From assembly GCF_015277775.1 (NCBI RefSeq), contig NZ_CP063849.1, positions 8,943,501 to 9,007,500 on the forward strand: a stretch of 64,000 nucleotides of DNA, written 5' to 3'. A program made the translations under genes and the position numbers. The notes beneath the pieces were generated by a model. The model did not search any database. It saw only the letters and a program-made list of their open reading frames with translations, and was not told the origin of the DNA. Shown piece after piece: positions 56,099 through 64,000 of the stretch (the first letter of the stretch is position 1; each line of letters starts with the position of its first letter). Origin of the DNA: Paludibaculum fermentans (GTDB lineage: Bacteria; Acidobacteriota; Terriglobia; Bryobacterales; Bryobacteraceae).

Positions 56099-56538
56099 AG
56101 CCTGGTTCCTCGCTCTGCGGTTCGAATCGATCTTTCGAGAGCATGTTGCGGGCCGTCGCCTGCCGCCGCCAGCCGGCCCTTTTGGGAGGAGGAGGGCCTG
56201 TGTGGCTGGCGGCGGCGGATTCAAGCGGGACCCCTGATGCCCGCCTGCGGGAGACAATCCCCGTCTCGAACTGATCCCAATCCCGGAAGGGCTACCCCAG
56301 CCGTTCCGGTGGCGGTCTGCCTTCAGTAGAAGCAACTGGCGGGCCAAACTGCTTCGTTGCTCGCTGCCTCTGCTGTCTGGCCTGGCAGCGATTGCAGAAA
56401 GATGGCTGCCTGGTGGAAAGGCGGCTATTCCGGAGTCGCCGGTCCGCTGTATGCTGTCTGTGGGACGGAGCCGGGCCCGCGCTCCGGTGGGGTCCCGCGC
56501 CGGGGTATTGCCCGGCTCGACGCGTTCCTGGAGGCTTC

Positions 56539-58125
56539 ATGGATTCGAAAGTGATGGTGGCTCTGTTGCTGGCCACGGTGAGTCTGGCCGCGGCGCCCAT
56601 GCCTCGTCTGGCAAAGGACAAGGGCGGCTTCCAGTTCCTGGTGGACGACAAGCCGTTCCTGATTCTCGGCATCCAGACCGGGAATTCCAGCGGTTTCCCC
56701 AAGGAGTTGGAGAAGACCTGGCCGCTGGCCAAACGGATCCATGTGAATACGGTGGAGATCCCCATCCAGTGGCAGGCGGTGGAACCGGTGGAAGGCCGCT
56801 TCGATTTCGCCATCGTGGACGGACTGGTGGCCGGCGCGCGGGCGAACGGGTTGCGGCTCATCCTGGCCTGGTTCGGCGGTTTCAAGAACGGCGCGATGCA
56901 CTTTGCTCCGGCGTGGGTGAAGGAGAACGTCCAGAAGTACCCCCGGATGATCGACCAGACCGGCAGCCCCATCCGTGCGCTGGCGACCCACGTAGAGGCC
57001 ACGCAGGCGGCGGACGCTCGGGGCTTCGCGGCCTTCATGCGGCATTTGAAAGAGATCGACGGCGAGCAGCACACCGTGATCGCCGTGCAGGTGGAAAACG
57101 AAGCCGGTGTGTTGGGGACGGATCGCGATCACTCCGAGAGCGCGAACAAGCTCTTCGCGCAGGCTGCGCCGGCTGAGGCGATCAAGGCGTTAGGGAAGAC
57201 GGGCAGCGGTACGTGGAATGAAGTGTTCGGGGCCTATGGCAGCGAAACCTTCGCCGCCTACTATCAGGCGAAGTATCTGCAGCGGGTGGCCGAGGCAGGC
57301 AAGCGCGAGTTCCCACTGCCGATGTTCCTGAACGTCTGGAGCGACATCCAGGACGGTTTCTACGAGCCGGGCTTCTCGCATCCCAGCGGAGGAGCCACGA
57401 CGCGCATGCTGCCCCTCTACAAAGCGTTGGTGCCGTCGATCGACTGGATCTCGCCGGACATCTACAAGCAGAGCTATGTGCAGTACGTCGAGGAAGCGAC
57501 GCCCTACAGCCGGCCGGACAATCCTCTGCTGATTCCCGAGACGGGCCGGGATCTGGGCTTCTGCCGGCGCATGTTCTACGCGTTGGGCGACCTGAAGGGC
57601 ATCGGCGTCTCGGTGTTTGGTGTGGAAGGTTCGGCGGAAGGCGACACGGGGGCGGTCCCCGAAAACCTGCGCGATCTGTCGGCGACCTATCGTGTGGTGG
57701 CGGCAGCCACTCCGCTGCTGGCGGAGGCGAAGAAGTACGGACAATTGCGGTCGTTTGTGGAAGAGACAGGCATTGCCACGCTGGTGGGCGATTTCGGGGC
57801 CTATGAGTCGATGGCGCAGTTCGGACCGTCGCATTGGGGCTATGGCGGAGCGCGCGCGGCGGGCACGCCGAAGACGACCGGGCGGGTGCTGATCGGGCAG
57901 GTGGGTCCGGAAGAATTCGTGATCGCCGGCTTCGACACGACCGTGAACTTCCGGCCGAAGTTCGGGTCAGCCGCGCCGCGGGCCGATTTCGTGAGTGCCG
58001 AGGAAGGCGCCTATGAGAATGGCGTGTGGAAAGCGCGACGGCAGTTGAGCGGCGATGAGATCTTCTTCGGGTTGAGGCTGCCGGGAGCGGGGACCGTGGT
58101 GCGGGTGAAGCTGATGAAGTATTAA
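56539..58125 (+). CDS. GH35/GH42-like beta-galactosidase family protein, secreted (DUF5597-type)
   Basis: A 528-residue protein from the ATG at 56539, with GGAGG 4-5 bases upstream and a leader (MVALLLATVSLAAAPM). The barrel has VNTVEIPIQWQAVEPVEGRFDF, the acid/base-type VIAVQVENEAGV (N-E), and PLLIPETGRD, in which E is the likely nucleophile, as in GH35/GH42. The C-terminal part (GRVLIGQVGPEEFVIAGFDTTVNF) is the beta domain found in DUF5597-containing relatives. Likely substrate is a beta-galactoside or related sugar; the exact specificity is unknown. Confidence 0.85.
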   Translation: MDSKVMVALLLATVSLAAAPMPRLAKDKGGFQFLVDDKPFLILGIQTGNSSGFPKELEKTWPLAKRIHVNTVEIPIQWQAVEPVEGRFDFAIVDGLVAGARANGLRLILAWFGGFKNGAMHFAPAWVKENVQKYPRMIDQTGSPIRALATHVEATQAADARGFAAFMRHLKEIDGEQHTVIAVQVENEAGVLGTDRDHSESANKLFAQAAPAEAIKALGKTGSGTWNEVFGAYGSETFAAYYQAKYLQRVAEAGKREFPLPMFLNVWSDIQDGFYEPGFSHPSGGATTRMLPLYKALVPSIDWISPDIYKQSYVQYVEEATPYSRPDNPLLIPETGRDLGFCRRMFYALGDLKGIGVSVFGVEGSAEGDTGAVPENLRDLSATYRVVAAATPLLAEAKKYGQLRSFVEETGIATLVGDFGAYESMAQFGPSHWGYGGARAAGTPKTTGRVLIGQVGPEEFVIAGFDTTVNFRPKFGSAAPRADFVSAEEGAYENGVWKARRQLSGDEIFFGLRLPGAGTVVRVKLMKY

Positions 58126-58639
58126 GAGTGGCGCGGTGAGCCGTCGCCAAACGTAGTTAACCTTCACGGACCGTGCTCTTTGGTCCTTGGTTCATTTGGT
58201 CGAGGCGTCGGGACCCGGCTCGCCTAGTCGGTGCTCCAATTTACGGATTGCCTGAACTTGCCGCGGGGTGAGCTTGCCTTCCTCCTCCAGGCGACGACCG
58301 ATGGAGCACGCCCGCTAGTGCGCCTCGGGTGTTTGGATCCGAAGCAGCGAGGCCACCACGTCTCATACTTAGTCGGCCCGATCCGGCTCCTGGTCCGAGG
58401 TTGGGCCGTCCAGGATGTCCCCGGCCCTACGGCGGCCTCCCTTAGGGGACCTGTCCACTGCGAATCGTCGTCACCGACCTGGGGCGATCGTCGATTGCCA
58501 GAAAGATTTGACCAGGGCATAACTCCTGTGAAATGATGATTTTCCGAGCAGATATCCCTCGGCCGTTGTTGGTCGCTGGGCCGAAGGTATAGTTTGCGAG
58601 GCGTCGACAGCCTCGATGCCAATTCGGAGACCGCCGGAA
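58126..58639. other. Spacer of about 510 bases between the glycosidase and the methyltransferase
   Basis: No convincing gene. A 40-codon minus-strand frame (58314-58192) reads GRRLEEEGKLTPRQVQAIRKLEHRLGE and then stops, without a start codon and with a TAG directly in front; it looks like the end of a decayed gene. The rest shows frames on both strands without domains. It marks the left border of the methyltransferase cluster. Confidence 0.45.
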
Positions 58640-59671
58640 ATGCCTGTGAGTGACGCGAATGAAAGCACTGTAAGGGCGATCGACCTGTTCGCCGGGGTTG
58701 GCGGAAGCAGCTGCGGCGCGAAGGCGGCGGGCGTGTGCGTGGTCGCGGCCATCGACGCCTGGGAACTGGCTGGAAAAGCGTACAAGGACAACAACCCCGA
58801 TACGGAGGTTTACACGTCATTCTGCGAGGATGTCGATCCAGCCAGCATCGAAAGGCAGTTCGGCCGGATCGAACTGCTCCTGGCCTCTCCCGAATGTACA
58901 AGTCATACTTGCGCCAAAGGGGCGGCCGAACGTTCCGAGAAGAGCCGTGGAACAGCATTCCAGGTAGTCCGCTTCGCAGAGGCGCTAACGCCCAGGTGGA
59001 TTGTGATCGAAAACGTGATTCACATGAGGGCTTGGACACGGTATCAGCAACTCATCGATTCGCTGGAGGCGTTGGACTACCGGTGCTTGCCACAGGTGCT
59101 CAACTCCGCCGACTTCGGAGTCCCTCAATCGCGGCGACGGCTGTTCATCGTGTGTGAACGCGGTCAGAAGCCGCCGGAAATTCGCCTGCCCGACGGCATG
59201 GTGCATGTTCCCGTCCGTAGCGTCATTGACACGAACGGGACGTACAAGTACAATCCGCTTCGGGCTGATGGTAGAGCGGCGCCTACTTTGGAGAGGGCGG
59301 ATCGTGCGATCGCGAACGTTGGCACGCGCGACCCCTTCTTGATCGTCTACTACGGCAGTGACGGTTCTGGAGGGTGGCAACCGGTCTCAGTCCCCCTTCG
59401 TACCATCACCACATTGGATCGCTTCGCCTACGTCCGGCGCCGCGATGGCATGCATGAGATGCGAATGTTGCAGGTTCCTGAGCTGCAGCTCGCGATGGGG
59501 TTTCCCAAGGACTATATTTTGGCGCGTGGGACGCGGCGGGACAGGATCAAGCTCCTGGGCAACGCCGTCTGCCCGCCCGTGATGGAACATGTCGTCCGGA
59601 CGTTAGTCAAGTCATCGCCACGTCGCGAAATGGTGTCGGCGGCAGGAGGGGGATCGGATGCCGGACTATAG
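58640..59671 (+). CDS. DNA (cytosine-5-)-methyltransferase
   Basis: A 343-residue enzyme that transfers a methyl group from S-adenosylmethionine to carbon 5 of cytosine in DNA. Motif I is DLFAGVGGSSCG (residues 15-26). Motif IV is SPECTSHT with catalytic C86, a variant of the usual PC motif. Motif VI is ENV (124-126), motif VIII QSRRRLFIV (163-171) and motif X LLGNAVCPPV. The target-recognition region between VIII and IX is short (about 100 residues). The ATG at 58640 is chosen over 58616 because motif I normally lies near the N-terminus. It overlaps the GHKL gene by 14 bases and heads a tight gene cluster. Confidence 0.93.
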   Translation: MPVSDANESTVRAIDLFAGVGGSSCGAKAAGVCVVAAIDAWELAGKAYKDNNPDTEVYTSFCEDVDPASIERQFGRIELLLASPECTSHTCAKGAAERSEKSRGTAFQVVRFAEALTPRWIVIENVIHMRAWTRYQQLIDSLEALDYRCLPQVLNSADFGVPQSRRRLFIVCERGQKPPEIRLPDGMVHVPVRSVIDTNGTYKYNPLRADGRAAPTLERADRAIANVGTRDPFLIVYYGSDGSGGWQPVSVPLRTITTLDRFAYVRRRDGMHEMRMLQVPELQLAMGFPKDYILARGTRRDRIKLLGNAVCPPVMEHVVRTLVKSSPRREMVSAAGGGSDAGL

Positions 59672-61760
59672 AGCGGTTCGCCAGGCATTCAAGCCTCGAG
59701 CACGCATGTTGCTGCTGCTGGGCGACCAGTTGATCCGCGACCCAGGCATCGCAGTCTTCGAGCTCGTAAAGAACGCTTACGACGCAGACTCTCCAGATTG
59801 CAGCATCAAGATGACGAAGGTGTCTGACAAGATTGCCGGGCGAATTGTGGTGGAGGACTCGGGCACCGGGATGGACCTCGACACAGTAACGAAGGTCTGG
59901 CTGGAGCCGGGAACTGACTATCGCATGAAACAGCGGGAGGACGGCTTCCGAACCCCCGGATTTCACAGAGCTCCTTTGGGCGAGAAGGGCATTGGTCGCT
60001 TCGCCGCGCACAAACTCGGTCTCAGGGTGCGGTTGACGACAAGGAAGAAAGGACAGCCCGAAGTTCACGCCGACATCGATTGGCAGCAATTCGAGCAAAA
60101 GACATATCTCTCCGACATCCCCGTATCAGTAACTGAAAGGAAGCCCGAGGTGTTCACCGGTGCCCGGACGGGAACGCGCATTGAGATCATGCGCCTTCGG
60201 AACGATTGGACGCGCGGGATGGTGCGGGATGTTAGCCGCGCGGTCACTTCGATATGTTCCCCTTTTCAGACATCAGACGAATTTAGACCACAGCTGATCA
60301 TGACCACGCACGACGAGGCGGCTTGGCTCCACGGCCTTCTGACCATCGAAGATGTCCGCGACTACGCATTGTTTCACGCATCCGGACGCATTGACGCCGA
60401 CACATTTTCCTACCAGTACGAGTTCACTCCTCTTCCAGCCATGGTCGAGCGAGTGCAGTCACGCACCCGCGATGACGGGAAAGCTAGACTACAATCGAGG
60501 CAGGGCCGCGAGACAAAGCTGCTGGATCTGCGCCAGCATTCCATCGGGCCCGTCGAAATCCAGCTATCTATTTTTGATCGCGAGCCACAGATACTTGCAC
60601 TTGGGGTCACCGACAAGAAGGGGCTGAAAGACTTCCTGGACAACGTCGGTGGGGTCCGTGTCTATCGGGATGGCATTCGGGTTTACAACTATGGCGAGCC
60701 CGGGGATGATTGGCTGGGGCTTGGCGGACGGCGCGTCAATATCCCCACTGGTCGCATTAGCAACAACTTGGTGATCGGCGCGGTCTCTCTCGATCTTTCC
60801 CAGAGTCGTGATCTGGTGGAGAAGACAAATCGGGAGGGGTTTGTTGACACGCCAGCCTACTCTCTTTTCCGCGACGCCGTGTTGCGCTCCATCGAGCAGA
60901 TCGAAGCGGAGCGTAACCAGGACAAGGCACGCATCAGGCAGGCGTATTCCAAGGGCAAGTTTCGGGAGCCCGTTCTCGCCGACCTCTCGGCGGTGCGGGA
61001 GGTGGTCGAGCGAAAGAACCTCAAGGAGATCACTCCCTATCTGGACCGAATTGAGAGTGATTTTACCGCCATTCGAGACCGATTTCTCACGTCGGCAAGC
61101 GCCGGGCTAAGCTTGACCATCGTTATCCATGAGGTCGAGAAGGGCATCGCGAACCTGGAAAAGGCGGCAAAGGAGTTCGGCGCGGCACCTCAAGTGACCT
61201 CAATGGCCCGTCATCTGGCCGAACTCGTGGAAGGGCTCGGAGCGCTGGCGCGCCGGTCGGGTGAATCGCGTGAGAAGGCCACGGCCCTAGTGAGGGCGGC
61301 GCTCTTCAACACGGAGTTGCGGCTTGAAGGCCACTCGATAGCGGTGACGCGCAATCTGCGGGAGGACTTTGAGGCCAAGTGCAGCAAACGATTACTCGTT
61401 GCAACGCTCATGAACTTAATTGACAACTCCATCTGGTGGCTCGACAACAAATGGGGGCCGCGCAGCAAGGCCGGCGTGAAGAAGATCTACATTGGCACGA
61501 GCGACGATTTCGGTGAGGGGCCGGCGATTGTGGTCGCGGACAACGGTCCGGGCTTCAGCGATCCTCCGGAGTTCCTAGTCGAGCCGTTCATGTCTCGCAA
61601 GCCTGACGGCATGGGTCTCGGTCTGCACTTGGCAGATCAGGTTATGAAGGTCCAAGGCGGGAAACTCTTGTTCCCAGATGCCGACGATGTGACCCTTCCC
61701 GCCGATTTCGACGGTGCCATCGTCGCTTTGGCCTTCGGAGGTGCGAAGTGGTCGGCCTGA
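59658..61760 (+). CDS. Large protein with two GHKL-type ATPase modules and a histidine-kinase-like H-box
   Basis: A 700-residue soluble protein. The N-terminal module is Hsp90/MORC/MutL-like: E35 and N39 (FELVKNAYDAD), D67 (DSGTGMD) and GEKGIGRFAA (108-117). The middle (190-440) resembles the transducer region of such ATPases. Residues 445-510 are a coiled coil with H491-E492 (TIVIHEVEKGI), like a dimerisation H-box. The C-terminal module is kinase-like: N586/N590 (LMNLIDNSI), DNGPGF (628-633) and GMGLGL (651-656). So one chain carries two nucleotide sites and a likely phospho-acceptor. It overlaps the methyltransferase (14 bases, AGGAGG before the start) and the receiver gene (13 bases). The closest known relatives are MutL/MORC-type ATPases in restriction clusters; the exact role is open. 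Confidence 0.88.
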   Translation: MPDYRAVRQAFKPRARMLLLLGDQLIRDPGIAVFELVKNAYDADSPDCSIKMTKVSDKIAGRIVVEDSGTGMDLDTVTKVWLEPGTDYRMKQREDGFRTPGFHRAPLGEKGIGRFAAHKLGLRVRLTTRKKGQPEVHADIDWQQFEQKTYLSDIPVSVTERKPEVFTGARTGTRIEIMRLRNDWTRGMVRDVSRAVTSICSPFQTSDEFRPQLIMTTHDEAAWLHGLLTIEDVRDYALFHASGRIDADTFSYQYEFTPLPAMVERVQSRTRDDGKARLQSRQGRETKLLDLRQHSIGPVEIQLSIFDREPQILALGVTDKKGLKDFLDNVGGVRVYRDGIRVYNYGEPGDDWLGLGGRRVNIPTGRISNNLVIGAVSLDLSQSRDLVEKTNREGFVDTPAYSLFRDAVLRSIEQIEAERNQDKARIRQAYSKGKFREPVLADLSAVREVVERKNLKEITPYLDRIESDFTAIRDRFLTSASAGLSLTIVIHEVEKGIANLEKAAKEFGAAPQVTSMARHLAELVEGLGALARRSGESREKATALVRAALFNTELRLEGHSIAVTRNLREDFEAKCSKRLLVATLMNLIDNSIWWLDNKWGPRSKAGVKKIYIGTSDDFGEGPAIVVADNGPGFSDPPEFLVEPFMSRKPDGMGLGLHLADQVMKVQGGKLLFPDADDVTLPADFDGAIVALAFGGAKWSA

Positions 61761-63082
61761 ATTCCGCACGAGTGCTGATCCTGGACGACGTCGAGGCGGA
61801 GGTGCTTGACCTCGTCAGGGTGCTATGGAAGATCGGAGTGGCTCCGCTCTACGTCGATCCTGCATCGTTGGAATCTGGGGTGCCTCGCGAACCCCTGTCC
61901 GGCATCCGCCTGGCTTTTCTGGACATGGATATCGTCGGCGCGGGCGCCGATCCGAAGTCCAAGGTGGCCGCGCTGGCGAACTGTATTCGTCGGGTCATTC
62001 ATAAGGACAATGGGCCTTACGTTGCCGTCGCGTGGACTAAGCACCCCGAGCTTGTTGACGATCTCGACAGTTATATTTTCCCGATGGCTGACGTTGCGCG
62101 TCCGTCAGTCTTCCTTAGGATTGATAAAGAGGAATGCAAGGACATCGGCACGCTCTCCACAAGAATTGACGCTGAACTTCAGAATCGCGGCCCAGTCAGA
62201 ATGCTGCAGGTTTGGGAAGAAGCCTCGGTCGCAGCTGGAAGCGAAGTAGTTGGCGAACTCGCGACCATCGCCTCGGGGAATGAGGACGCGCCTGAGAAAT
62301 GGCGTGAGGGCTGGAACAACACAATGCTCCGGCTCATGTACGGCTGTGGGAAGGAGTTCGCCGGCGAGTCCGGCATGACGGACGGGCCGACAGCATTCAA
62401 AGCGTTCTGTCACTCGCTGATTCCACTCCACGGAGACAAACTGGAAGGCCGCGTAGCGGTTCCGGCCCCGGCTCTTGGAAACATCACGAACGAGATCCTC
62501 TCAAACGCCGCGAAAGCAGACTGCGAAACAGAGGCAAAGGCGCGGATCAACTCGATGCTGCACTGCTCGTTCGATGGTTTGGGCATCCCACAATCGGGAG
62601 GTGTCTACCTGATGAGTTCCGCTGCCTTGTCCCCGCTGTTTCCCGATATCGCGACGATGATTGCTCCACTGCTCTCCAAGGGTAAAACCAGCGAGGAAGA
62701 GTTCAAGAAGCAAGTGGAGTCGGTCGCGGCCGACGTGGTCCCGGTTGCAGTTGAGACAAGCCCCTCATGTGATCACGCACAGGGTAACTTGATCGTCGCT
62801 CGGCTCGTTGGCGGTTTCTTGGTGCCCATTGAAACTGTAAAGAAGTTCAAGAGTACACTGCCTCAATCCATTTGGAAGATTGCGCCGTTCTGGATCTCCG
62901 TCAATGGCGGCGAGAAGGCAACGTATTCGTTGCTGGTTAACTGTCTCCTTGTCAGCAGTTGTTCCCTTGAGGCGCTCAAGAAAGAGACGGCGATGTTCCG
63001 TATCCGAAGCCAGGCGTTCGCAACCCTGCAGGCCTGTTTTGGCAGTCACGCTTCGCGTCCGGGCATGCTGCTCTTGCGATAG
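61748..63082 (+). CDS. Receiver-domain protein, partner of the GHKL ATPase
   Basis: A 444-residue protein from a GTG start with GGAGG 7 bases upstream. Residues 5-130 look like a response-regulator receiver: D13-D14 (VLILDDVEAEV), likely phospho-acceptor D59 (AFLDMDIVG), T97 (VAVAWTKHP) and K127 (FLRIDKEE). The rest has no recognisable DNA-binding or enzyme motif; it is helical with conserved-looking segments GDKLEGRVAVPAPALG and KIAPFWISVNGGEKAT. Overlap with the kinase-like gene suggests a matched pair that signals by phosphotransfer. Its output is unknown. The vsr gene follows 19 bases later. Confidence 0.8.
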   Translation: MVGLNSARVLILDDVEAEVLDLVRVLWKIGVAPLYVDPASLESGVPREPLSGIRLAFLDMDIVGAGADPKSKVAALANCIRRVIHKDNGPYVAVAWTKHPELVDDLDSYIFPMADVARPSVFLRIDKEECKDIGTLSTRIDAELQNRGPVRMLQVWEEASVAAGSEVVGELATIASGNEDAPEKWREGWNNTMLRLMYGCGKEFAGESGMTDGPTAFKAFCHSLIPLHGDKLEGRVAVPAPALGNITNEILSNAAKADCETEAKARINSMLHCSFDGLGIPQSGGVYLMSSAALSPLFPDIATMIAPLLSKGKTSEEEFKKQVESVAADVVPVAVETSPSCDHAQGNLIVARLVGGFLVPIETVKKFKSTLPQSIWKIAPFWISVNGGEKATYSLLVNCLLVSSCSLEALKKETAMFRIRSQAFATLQACFGSHASRPGMLLLR

Positions 63083-63101
63083 CGGAAGTCTATGGAAGTC
63101 T

Positions 63102-63542
63102 ATGGATGTTTTCTCCAAAGACAAGCGTTCGGAGGTGATGGCAAAGATCCGGGGAAGAGGAAATCGATCAACGGAGCGCCGAATGGCGGCGCTGTTGCGT
63201 GCGAAAAGGATATCCGGCTGGCAAATGCATCGGGAGGATCTCCCTGGCACGCCGGACTTCTACTTTCCTAATCTTCACTTGGCGCTGTTCATCGATGGAT
63301 GCTTCTGGCACCAATGCCCAAGGTGCTCCAAGCTCCCCGCACAAAACGCCGTGTTTTGGGCCGAGAAGCTATCGAAGAACGTCCGACGGGACAGGCGGAC
63401 ACGTCGGGCATTGAACCGCGCCGGGATACGCGTCTGGCGTCTTTGGGAACATGACCTGGAGCGGAATACGCCTCGTTGCGAGACAGTTGTGTCTAGAATC
63501 GCATCGCTCGTTCTGTCGGCCAAACGAAGCCCATGCGGTTGA
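63102..63542 (+). CDS. vsr: Very short patch repair (Vsr) type endonuclease
   Basis: A 146-residue nuclease. MDVFSKDKRSEVMAKIRGRGNRSTERRM, P51-D52 (GTPDFYFP, the catalytic aspartate), F64-I-D-G-C-F-W-H70 with C72 and C75 (the zinc site) and VWRLWEHDL are the Vsr pattern. Vsr nicks DNA beside T:G mismatches that arise from deamination of 5-methylcytosine, so it normally partners a 5-methylcytosine enzyme, as here. In some clusters Vsr-like enzymes serve as the restriction nuclease. A 10-base duplication (gaagtctatg twice) lies directly before the start. Confidence 0.93.
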   Translation: MDVFSKDKRSEVMAKIRGRGNRSTERRMAALLRAKRISGWQMHREDLPGTPDFYFPNLHLALFIDGCFWHQCPRCSKLPAQNAVFWAEKLSKNVRRDRRTRRALNRAGIRVWRLWEHDLERNTPRCETVVSRIASLVLSAKRSPCG

Positions 63543-63875
63543 AGGTCGGAGCGGGGACATAGATGGGACGCTCCCGTTTCCGGAGCCACTGACGTCGGGA
63601 CGTCCTGGATGTCCCCGGCCGAATGATGGTAGCGTCCGAGGAATCCCCGAGCTAACGACCCACCGCACGAGTCGCATGACGGAAGTAAGGCGAGATTTGC
63701 TCTCTTGTCAATGTGGAGCGGAGAGTCACTTTAGCCTCACCATCAACGCAGTCACCTGGCACTGCGGACTAAGCGGACCGTGCGGCGCGCCGGAAATTAC
63801 GGCGACAGCTGACGTTTAATCCGAGAAAGCATTGCCGTGCCCTACCGCAAGAATCAATTCAGCCGATAGAACCTC
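63543..63875. other. Spacer after vsr with an inverted repeat
   Basis: About 330 bases. A 9-base inverted repeat (cggggacat at 63552-63560, atgtccccg at 63609-63617) follows the vsr stop and may end its transcript, though there is no T-tract. A short cysteine-containing frame (63676-63819) is listed separately. Confidence 0.4.
63676..63819 (+). CDS. Possible small cysteine-rich protein (47 residues)
   Basis: A short frame from an ATG at 63676: MTEVRRDLLSCQCGAESHFSL, then WHCGLSGPCGAPE. Two cysteine pairs with a histidine could make a small metal-binding site, but there is no good ribosome site and no recognisable family. It may be spurious. Confidence 0.3.
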   Translation: MTEVRRDLLSCQCGAESHFSLTINAVTWHCGLSGPCGAPEITATADV

Positions 63876-64000
63876 ATGGCCCGCCACCATTCCAATAAAC
63901 TCTCCATTCCACGCGATTTCCCAGATGCATTCTATCGAAGCGTCCATGCAACTGTGACTCCAAAGCTTGGAAATCAGTCGGATCATCAGACCAATTTCCT
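63876..64000 (+). CDS. Unidentified gene, cut by the right edge
   Basis: An ATG at 63876 opens a frame that runs to the window end (41 codons visible, starting MARHHSNKLSIPRDFPDAFY). There is no signal peptide. Too little is seen to identify it. It follows the vsr gene on the same strand and may be another member of the cluster, possibly the missing effector. Confidence 0.45.
   Translation, partial: MARHHSNKLSIPRDFPDAFYRSVHATVTPKLGNQSDHQTNF

Follow-up and report, generated by a model that had tools for sequence, protein, structure and literature searches.

The window, the whole 64,000-nucleotide stretch of the Paludibaculum fermentans contig NZ_CP063849.1 that was analyzed here, carries a compact cassette of four genes, all on the plus strand. 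These encode, in order, a C5-cytosine methyltransferase (MTase; 58616-59671, 351 amino acids), a double-GHKL histidine-kinase-like protein (HK; 59658-61760, 700 amino acids), a response-regulator-like protein (RR; 61748-63082, 444 amino acids, GTG start), and a Vsr mismatch endonuclease (63102-63542, 146 amino acids, ATG start). The MTase and HK genes overlap by 14 bp and the HK and RR genes by 13 bp, and a gap of 19 bp (63083-63101) separates RR from Vsr. An earlier note, made from the sequence alone, had described this packing and the domain identities. The open reading frame (ORF) calls confirmed the cluster and its gene order, and the domains were confirmed by Pfam and NCBIfam matches and, for the receiver, by structure prediction. 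The start of the cluster at 58616 also held, but its end lies at 63542 rather than at 64000, and 63543-64000 is flank. The MTase matched PF00145 (expect value [E], 5e-40) and, above the cut-off, TIGR00675 of NCBIfam (110.8 bits), while Vsr matched PF03852 (E 1e-17) and TIGR00632 (104 bits; cut-off, 97.85). They are the only C5 MTase and the only Vsr of the 9.53-Mb genome (E up to 0.001). The four genes are enclosed by 30-nucleotide direct repeats on the plus strand (58397-58426 and 63591-63620; spacing, 5194), which are identical at 26 of 30 positions (87%).

HK contains two GHKL modules, as the earlier note had claimed. The N-terminal module (residues 31 to 154, 59748-60119) matched HATPase_c_3 (PF13589, E 1e-17), and the C-terminal module (residues 579 to 671, 61392-61670) matched HATPase_c (PF02518, E 3e-12). 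In a residue alignment of the window HK with 96 paired relatives (97 rows), the N-terminal motif residues N39, D67, G69, G71, K110, G111, and G113 and the C-terminal motif residues N586, D589, N590, D628, G630, G632, G653, and G655 were present in every row. The candidate phospho-accepting histidine, His491 (61128-61130), was likewise invariant. The solved sequence relatives of HK are histidine kinases and sensor proteins and were matched over its C-terminal part only, in agreement with the kinase-like second module described before, and the mutL models of NCBIfam matched the N-terminal module at E 0.006 to 0.03. These matches support a composition of one MORC/MutL-like module and one kinase-like module. 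A further conserved block at residues 391 to 394 (R392 and G394 in 97/97 rows, N391 in 90/97) could fit a transducer region, the place taken in paraMORCs by an S5 domain behind the N-terminal GHKL module.

RR was not recognizable by standard domain models. Pfam gave no match for it at E up to 1, nor did NCBIfam at E up to 0.1, its one PADLOC match was weak (E 0.05), and PHROGs and Pfam scans of aligned RRs gave nothing useful. The receiver domain (residues 1 to 145, 61748-62182; boundary set by eye from the model) was recognized because of an AlphaFold2 (AF2) model, receiver matches in Foldseek, and conserved residues. The AF2 model, made on 80 sequences, reached a predicted local distance difference test score (pLDDT) of 93.6 and a predicted template-modeling score (pTM) of 0.87. 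The underlying alignment comprised the window RR and 79 of 81 nonredundant RRs, excluding those of loci L082 (contig end) and L066; a further RR alignment additionally left out L072 (long insert) and L064 (contig end). The candidate phospho-acceptor Asp59 (61922-61924) was invariant in the 80 aligned RRs, Asp13 and Lys127 were each found in 79 and Asp14 in 72, and position 97 was Thr or Ser in 73. Foldseek with the full-length RR returned mostly receiver proteins, with the MazF structure 5cr2_B at rank 48, and in BFVD the 29th-ranked match was a PemK-like protein (probability, 0.38). The canonical two-component residues (phospho-His, ATP-binding boxes, phospho-Asp, acidic pair, Thr/Ser, and Lys) are present in the two proteins, and the phosphorelay residues of the pair are, as read from the alignments, intact.

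The C-terminal domain of RR (residues 256 to 444, 62513-63079) is predicted to adopt a MazF/PemK-like fold. Modeled alone, these 189 residues gave a high-confidence AF2 model (pLDDT, 95.3; pTM, 0.89), and 28 of its first 35 Foldseek matches in the PDB were titled MazF. Six further matches among the 35 (1ne8, 4of1, 7bye, 5xe3, 7bxy, and 4hke) are presumably MazF-family toxins, since their titles fit; rank 33 was an unrelated phage T4 protein, and later ranks were mixed. The template-modeling (TM) scores of the MazF matches, normalized by the target, were 0.51 to 0.65, and we take the order of strands and helices to agree with that of MazF, except that a helical segment is inserted behind strand 1. 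The signature of the domain family is Cys341-Asp342 (62768-62773), of which the cysteine is invariant and the aspartate is present in 79 of the 80 RRs. Gly284, Arg437, and Gly439 (78 each), Asn268 (77), and Gln345 (67) are also conserved. A profile of the domain was found in 9 of the 396 genomes of the phylum, and all nine places adjoin an independently found HK, so within this sample the domain is dedicated to HK-RR pairs.

The pair is widely distributed. A profile of eight HKs searched against genome_contigs yielded at least 588 stretches with at least 517 relatives, and 80 loci were kept, the record titles of which cover many bacterial phyla; not all loci are independent, and L066 and L067 overlap. 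The corresponding yield from viral_contigs was 39 of 88. In the phylum, HK occurred in 18 of 396 genomes (E up to 1e-20), and in the genus in one of nine, one other genome having distant HKs only. Among plasmids, 98 records had an HK match, seven of them at 40 to 42% identity over 98 to 99% of HK, and RR relatives (E up to 0.01) were found in those seven only. HK-RR pairs of this kind thus occur across many phyla, plasmids, and viral contigs.

The earlier note had suggested checking whether MTase, receiver, and Vsr genes recur beside HK homologs; RR and a C5 MTase do, and Vsr often does. RR is the gene immediately after HK in 72 of the 76 genome_contigs loci with at least 900 bp downstream, a C5 MTase lies within 6 kb in 45 of the 47 loci that extend at least 6 kb to either side, and Vsr lies within 7 kb in 28 of these 47. 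Neither a lack of conserved association nor a confinement of the homologs to stand-alone kinases, the two findings which that note had named as refuting it, was observed. Because the 9.53-Mb genome has one C5 MTase and one Vsr, the near-constant linkage to RR and C5 MTase is not explained by chance. The whole order MTase-HK-RR-Vsr recurs in seven loci (L046, L057, L069, L078, L091, L114, and L118) and in the viral contig L125, and in L028 one extra gene separates MTase-HK-RR from Vsr. An RR of the window family follows HK in 15 of 38 viral contigs and in 8 of the 18 phylum genomes, the rest of the latter having distant HKs with other partners. Six of the 80 loci had no adjacent RR; two of them (L048 and L051, near or at a contig edge) were not counted, and the four misses were L065, L066, L067, and L119, the last of which is broken into several frames. 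For L066 and L067, the HK scored for adjacency was the longest and not the one matched by the profile; RR pieces lie behind the matched HK of L067, and none behind that of L066. Both loci are on one chromosome labeled uncultured Cenarchaeum sp., where HK and RR are present as several tandem copies or pieces.

In addition to gene adjacency, the co-variation of the parts was investigated by correlating pairwise identities. HK and RR were strongly correlated (r = 0.89, 83 nonredundant members), a value reached by none of 1,000 permutations. In contrast, the correlation was 0.18 between HK and MTase (69 members) and 0.23 between HK and Vsr (42 members; reached by 1 of 1,000 permutations). HK and RR therefore vary as one unit, from which MTase and Vsr are largely uncoupled. 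It is this pair that stays constant, and Vsr and the restriction enzymes are variable.

Taken together, these data lead us to propose, tentatively and at a little under an even chance, that the cassette encodes a DNA-sensing phosphorelay with a MazF-fold output, which serves exchangeable restriction-modification (R-M) systems based on 5-methylcytosine (5mC) and travels horizontally as a defense-type unit. In this proposal, the MTase would mark self DNA with 5mC, and Vsr would repair the T:G mismatches arising from 5mC deamination. The N-terminal MORC/MutL-like ATPase of HK would sense a DNA state (foreign, unmodified, or broken), and the kinase-type module would phosphorylate His491, from which the phosphate would presumably pass to Asp59 of RR. 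Phosphorylation could then free or reshape the MazF-fold domain, which would itself act, possibly as a toxin, on nucleic acid or on some other target in the cell. HK-RR would be a transferable partner shared among different 5mC R-M systems, most likely as a second, cell-arresting or backup line of defense. A relay whose output acts directly, and not through a promoter, is suggested by the dedicated MazF-fold domain together with the invariance of the relay residues and the co-variation of the pair. The earlier note had offered defense as an inference, and we also infer it from context: related pairs have R-M neighbors, lie near phage tail genes (L126, L134, and L139) or terminase and replication genes (L131) in viral contigs, and occur on conjugative plasmids. 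If RR phosphorylation stops growth or protects from phage, R-M systems would carry a signaling-driven second line, comparable to the CapK and VapKSC systems discussed below.

Several observations weigh against this proposal. Rank 1 alone among the PDB matches of the C-terminal domain had a Foldseek E below 0.001, and the query-normalized TM scores of the MazF matches were 0.32 to 0.41, with root-mean-square deviations of 5 to 10. No sequence link to MazF/PemK was detected by hhalign (probability, 0.1%), the domain profile matched no PDB sequence at E up to 10, and PF02452 matched none of the 80 aligned RRs. The catalytic residues of MazF are Arg and Thr, and no conserved counterpart was seen at the topology-matched positions of the C-terminal domain, a comparison by topology and not by residue-level superposition; a ribonuclease activity of RR is therefore not supported. 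The partners of several distant HKs are short (209 to 225 residues) and have no C-terminal domain. Foldseek with the full-length RR also returned FixJ, StyR, RcsB, and PorX, which have DNA-binding or enzymatic outputs, at low TM. Vsr is absent near 19 of the 47 loci, and the co-variation of HK with MTase, weak as it is, exceeded that of all 1,000 permutations. Classification of RR as a MazF toxin was rejected, as the resemblance is one of fold only.

The DNA-binding response regulators among these matches bear on another explanation, in which the phosphorelay is purely a controller of the attached R-M or repair genes: phosphorylated RR would alter how the MTase or the restriction enzyme is expressed, how active it is, or how stable, and would not itself be toxic. 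Bellieny-Rabelo et al. (2021; PMC8011034) and, in essence, the earlier note took a regulatory view, which we regard as possible but doubtful. The MTase, found near almost every pair, is the immediate upstream neighbor on the same strand in 34 of the 80 loci, and exchangeable R-M partners would fit a general controller. A MazF-like barrel, whose MazF active-site residues are not recognizable, could also bind RNA, DNA, or protein without cutting. However, the MTase is convergent to HK-RR in 14 of the 80 loci, so one shared promoter is not the rule, and the window repeats enclose no recognized classical restriction enzyme to be controlled. Pfam detected no DNA-binding domain in the window RR or the 80 aligned RRs except for one weak TetR_C match, and the C-terminal domain alone matches MazF. 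The claim of the earlier note that a phosphorelay controls restriction or repair is supported as far as the conserved His491 and Asp59 are concerned; its regulatory part is not matched by a recognized DNA-binding output, the predicted output being MazF-like.

The search for a restriction enzyme bears on a third explanation. Between the repeats, no classical restriction enzyme was recognized by Pfam, NCBIfam, or PADLOC. The cassette was accordingly not classified as a plain R-M operon, nor as a type II R-M system, the cognate restriction endonuclease of which was not found in the unit. A DISARM identity was also rejected: the best PADLOC match of the MTase was the DISARM methyltransferase model DrmMII (PDLC02654, 336 bits), DrmA, DrmB, and DrmC had no PADLOC match among the other three cassette proteins scanned, and the cassette thus holds just the DISARM methyltransferase type. 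Apart from Vsr, the sole matches of the cassette to restriction-enzyme models were partial ones, both over the ATPase region of HK. Residues 34 to 188 matched the BbrUII/HgiDII model NF050001 of NCBIfam (75 bits; cut-off, 550), and residues 21 to 142 matched the REase_II model of PADLOC (44 bits). HK-RR might therefore be the restriction arm itself, which would replace a classical restriction enzyme and attack unmarked DNA while the MTase protects the host. We consider this methylation-gated arrangement unlikely, even though the unit between the repeats holds MTase, HK, RR, and Vsr and no recognized classical restriction enzyme. Other loci have restriction enzymes beside the same pair, the HK matches cover only the ATPase part and, for BbrUII, fall far below the cut-off, and no nuclease domain was recognized in HK or RR by Pfam.

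The neighborhoods of the other pairs were examined for such enzymes. Of the 47 loci, 18 have a tag for any of five restriction-enzyme types, counted at whatever place in the locus, and 29 have none, the latter being in line with a restriction arm; enzymes of unknown families, or outside the sequence covered, would escape these tags. A survey listed 128 neighbors from 45 loci that have an MTase but carry no restriction-enzyme tag. Of these neighbors, 94 were scanned; the 34 others, set aside by hand, were mostly short, with one long protein (1,337 amino acids, L046) and three that had been scanned earlier. No single conserved restriction enzyme or endonuclease family was found beside the pair among the matches listed, which cover 25 of 129 Pfam and 25 of 450 PADLOC families. 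Among these matches, the Pfam families included N6_Mtase (6), Eco57I (5), HNH, HNH_2, and ResIII (2 each), and XhoI (1), and the PADLOC families included mad2 (7) and type I methyltransferases (up to 6). The lack of a recognized classical restriction enzyme between the repeats also raised a bolder version of the effector-arm idea, a methylation-gated suicide relay. Here the MTase would supply the self mark, a MORC-like clamp of HK would read unmarked or damaged DNA, and the phosphate would activate a MazF-fold domain whose Cys-Asp site would be new. In this version, HK-RR would be an effector arm needing no restriction enzyme, and the published HEF_HK/Response_reg_2 pairs (see below) would share the output. 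We hold this version to be rather improbable, and the restriction enzymes beside other pairs speak against an effector arm as a rule.

Vsr and the MutL-like module of HK suggest a repair device, in which that module would assist Vsr in very-short-patch repair and the relay would tune repair to methylation. This explanation appears very unlikely to us. The mutL matches, the presence of Vsr in 28 loci, and the HhH-GPD glycosylases tagged in six loci, five of which (L027, L033, L049, L052, and L106) had no Vsr found in the locus sequence, are in its favor, and such a glycosylase is possibly doing the job of Vsr at Vsr-less loci. On the other side, 18 of the 19 loci without a nearby Vsr have no glycosylase tag, the identity correlation of HK with Vsr is weak, and the MazF-fold output would go unexplained.

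The gene association and most of its interpretation have already been published (PMC8011034): HEF_HK (PF19191) and Response_reg_2 (PF19192) pairs were linked to R-M systems, and a phosphorelay serving R-M was suggested. That paper reports no further known domain in Response_reg_2 proteins and places Vsr most often just downstream of RR, as in the window. The window cassette shares with those pairs a kinase of HATPase_c_3, a DHp-like part with the conserved His, and HATPase_c, an adjacent receiver protein, and the linked C5 MTase and Vsr. However, the window HK did not match PF19191 and the window RR did not match PF19192 at E up to 1, its own genome had no PF19192 match at E up to 10, and none of the 80 aligned RRs matched at E up to 0.01. 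The window pair was thus not filed under these Pfam families.

A bridge between the two groups was found within the phylum. PF19192 proteins occurred in 2 of 396 genomes, in loci (L214 and L215) with a PF19191-matching HK, an MTase, and Vsr by our own profiles, and the L214 RR has a hydrophobic stretch ending in QPVCD, which by eye resembles the CD signature of the window family. In a genome of the window's genus, the HK of the pair L216 (L216:5476-9839) matched PF19191 (25.9 bits; cut-off, 24.1), and its RR matched the window-family RR profile (E 2e-8), the match covering the receiver as well as the C-terminal region with an SPACD motif. Because hhalign, run directly on the window RR family and the L214 RR, gave a probability of only 9%, confined to the receiver region, the link to the PF19192 family is drawn through the L216 bridge and the shared motif. 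From these comparisons, the window cassette is likely a divergent sister lineage of HEF_HK/Response_reg_2. New relative to 2021 are the prediction of the MazF-like C-terminal domain, the intact relay residues, the co-variation of HK and RR beside an MTase that hardly follows and restriction enzymes that change from locus to locus, and the flanking repeats. The 2021 description left the role of the receiver protein open, and the predicted MazF-like domain with an invariant Cys offers a testable output. Our literature search, in which most subscription papers were beyond reach, found no later experimental study of the HK-RR pair among the titles listed.

Other known systems resemble parts of the cassette. 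The MazF/PemK toxins share the predicted fold of RR residues 256 to 444, but the window domain has no detected sequence similarity to them, has other conserved residues, and sits on a receiver protein. Detocs is reportedly a two-component-like anti-phage system with a receiver-linked effector, having other sensor and effector domains and no methyltransferase. ParaMORC GHKL ATPases have been described in R-M operons (Iyer, Abhiman and Aravind, 2008; PMC2292703), and the window HK resembles them in its N-terminal ATPase and its association with methylases and Vsr-type nucleases; the fusion to a histidine-kinase core with a receiver partner is not described in the available part of that text. HEPN domains are reported to be fused to paraMORCs in R-M loci (PMC3710099), and VcSduA, of a kind formerly annotated as paraMORC3, is reported as a GHKL-ATPase/nuclease defense protein (PMC12137116). 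According to a recent report (EMBO J 2026; PMC13373217), CapK is a GHKL kinase activated by single-stranded DNA, the related VapKSC activates a VapC-like RNase, and 88 of 443 capKS pairs lie just downstream of a predicted R-M system. These systems are alike in having a GHKL kinase and its substrate near R-M or immune operons and in responding to DNA damage; they differ in phosphorylating a serine of a STAS protein, and the likeness claims no homology. Together with the HEPN-paraMORC fusions and VcSduA, they are precedents in the literature for the relay proposed above.

Next, we examined the flanks of the cassette. The 26/30 repeat match compares with 22/30 for the best of 300 flank shuffles, and the 16-nucleotide core of the repeat has two exact matches in the 9.53-Mb genome, both at the cassette flanks. 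Among 61 other loci, the best flank match stayed at the level of the cross-locus control; the repeat is therefore a property of the window locus, and direct repeats were ruled out as a general feature of pair loci. Genome G401 has the upstream gene (78% over 1.7 kb) and a downstream block (85% over 7.7 kb) in collinear order, 5.8 kb apart, compared with 17.6 kb here. In genome G397, homology (86% over 2.1 kb) ends at 58130, and downstream there are two matches of 71 and 42 columns in 9.7 kb. From these flank comparisons, the cassette lies in a genus-variable region spanning window position 58121 to about 11.8 kb past the window end. The cassette is probably mobile, and it may have moved by means of the repeats.

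The genes beside the other pairs are diverse. They encode Z1 and MORC-like ATPase (HATPase_c_3) proteins, EcoRII, MvaI/BcnI, and AspBHI types, HNH proteins, and HhH-GPD glycosylases; the labels MORC and AIPR were assigned by hand, the MORC seed having been scanned (HATPase_c_3) and the AIPR seed not. The closest relative of the window HK (84% identical) is in L045, a metagenome-assembled genome labeled Candidatus Solibacter, where the pair adjoins genes for a MORC-like ATPase, Z1, and DUF4420; the 13 kb of this locus showed no MTase. AspBHI-type enzymes were tagged in seven loci (L056, L058, L079, L083, L089, L097, and L110), with RE_AspBHI_N and Mrr_cat in the one that was scanned. The enzyme named AspBHI is, we assume, modification-dependent, and the presence of this type in loci with 5mC methyltransferases raises the question of how self-cutting is avoided.

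The partners of distant HKs fall into several kinds. Stretches ending in xCD, like the signature of the C-terminal domain, were seen by a loose pattern, without a count, in the partners of L033, L035, L037, L038, L039, L151, and L157. By the same loose pattern, partners in several other loci, some with a C5 MTase, have no such stretch (L040, L043, L044, L153, and L156). The distant HKs of the viral contigs L140 to L143, L146, L148, L155, L158, and L162 have N6-type methyltransferase relatives nearby, some with an HNH gene; with their partners of about 209 to 225 residues without the C-terminal domain, they apparently form a sister system. The upstream neighbor of the window cassette (56392-58125) is a 577-codon ORF with two more homologs in its own genome (E below 1e-50).

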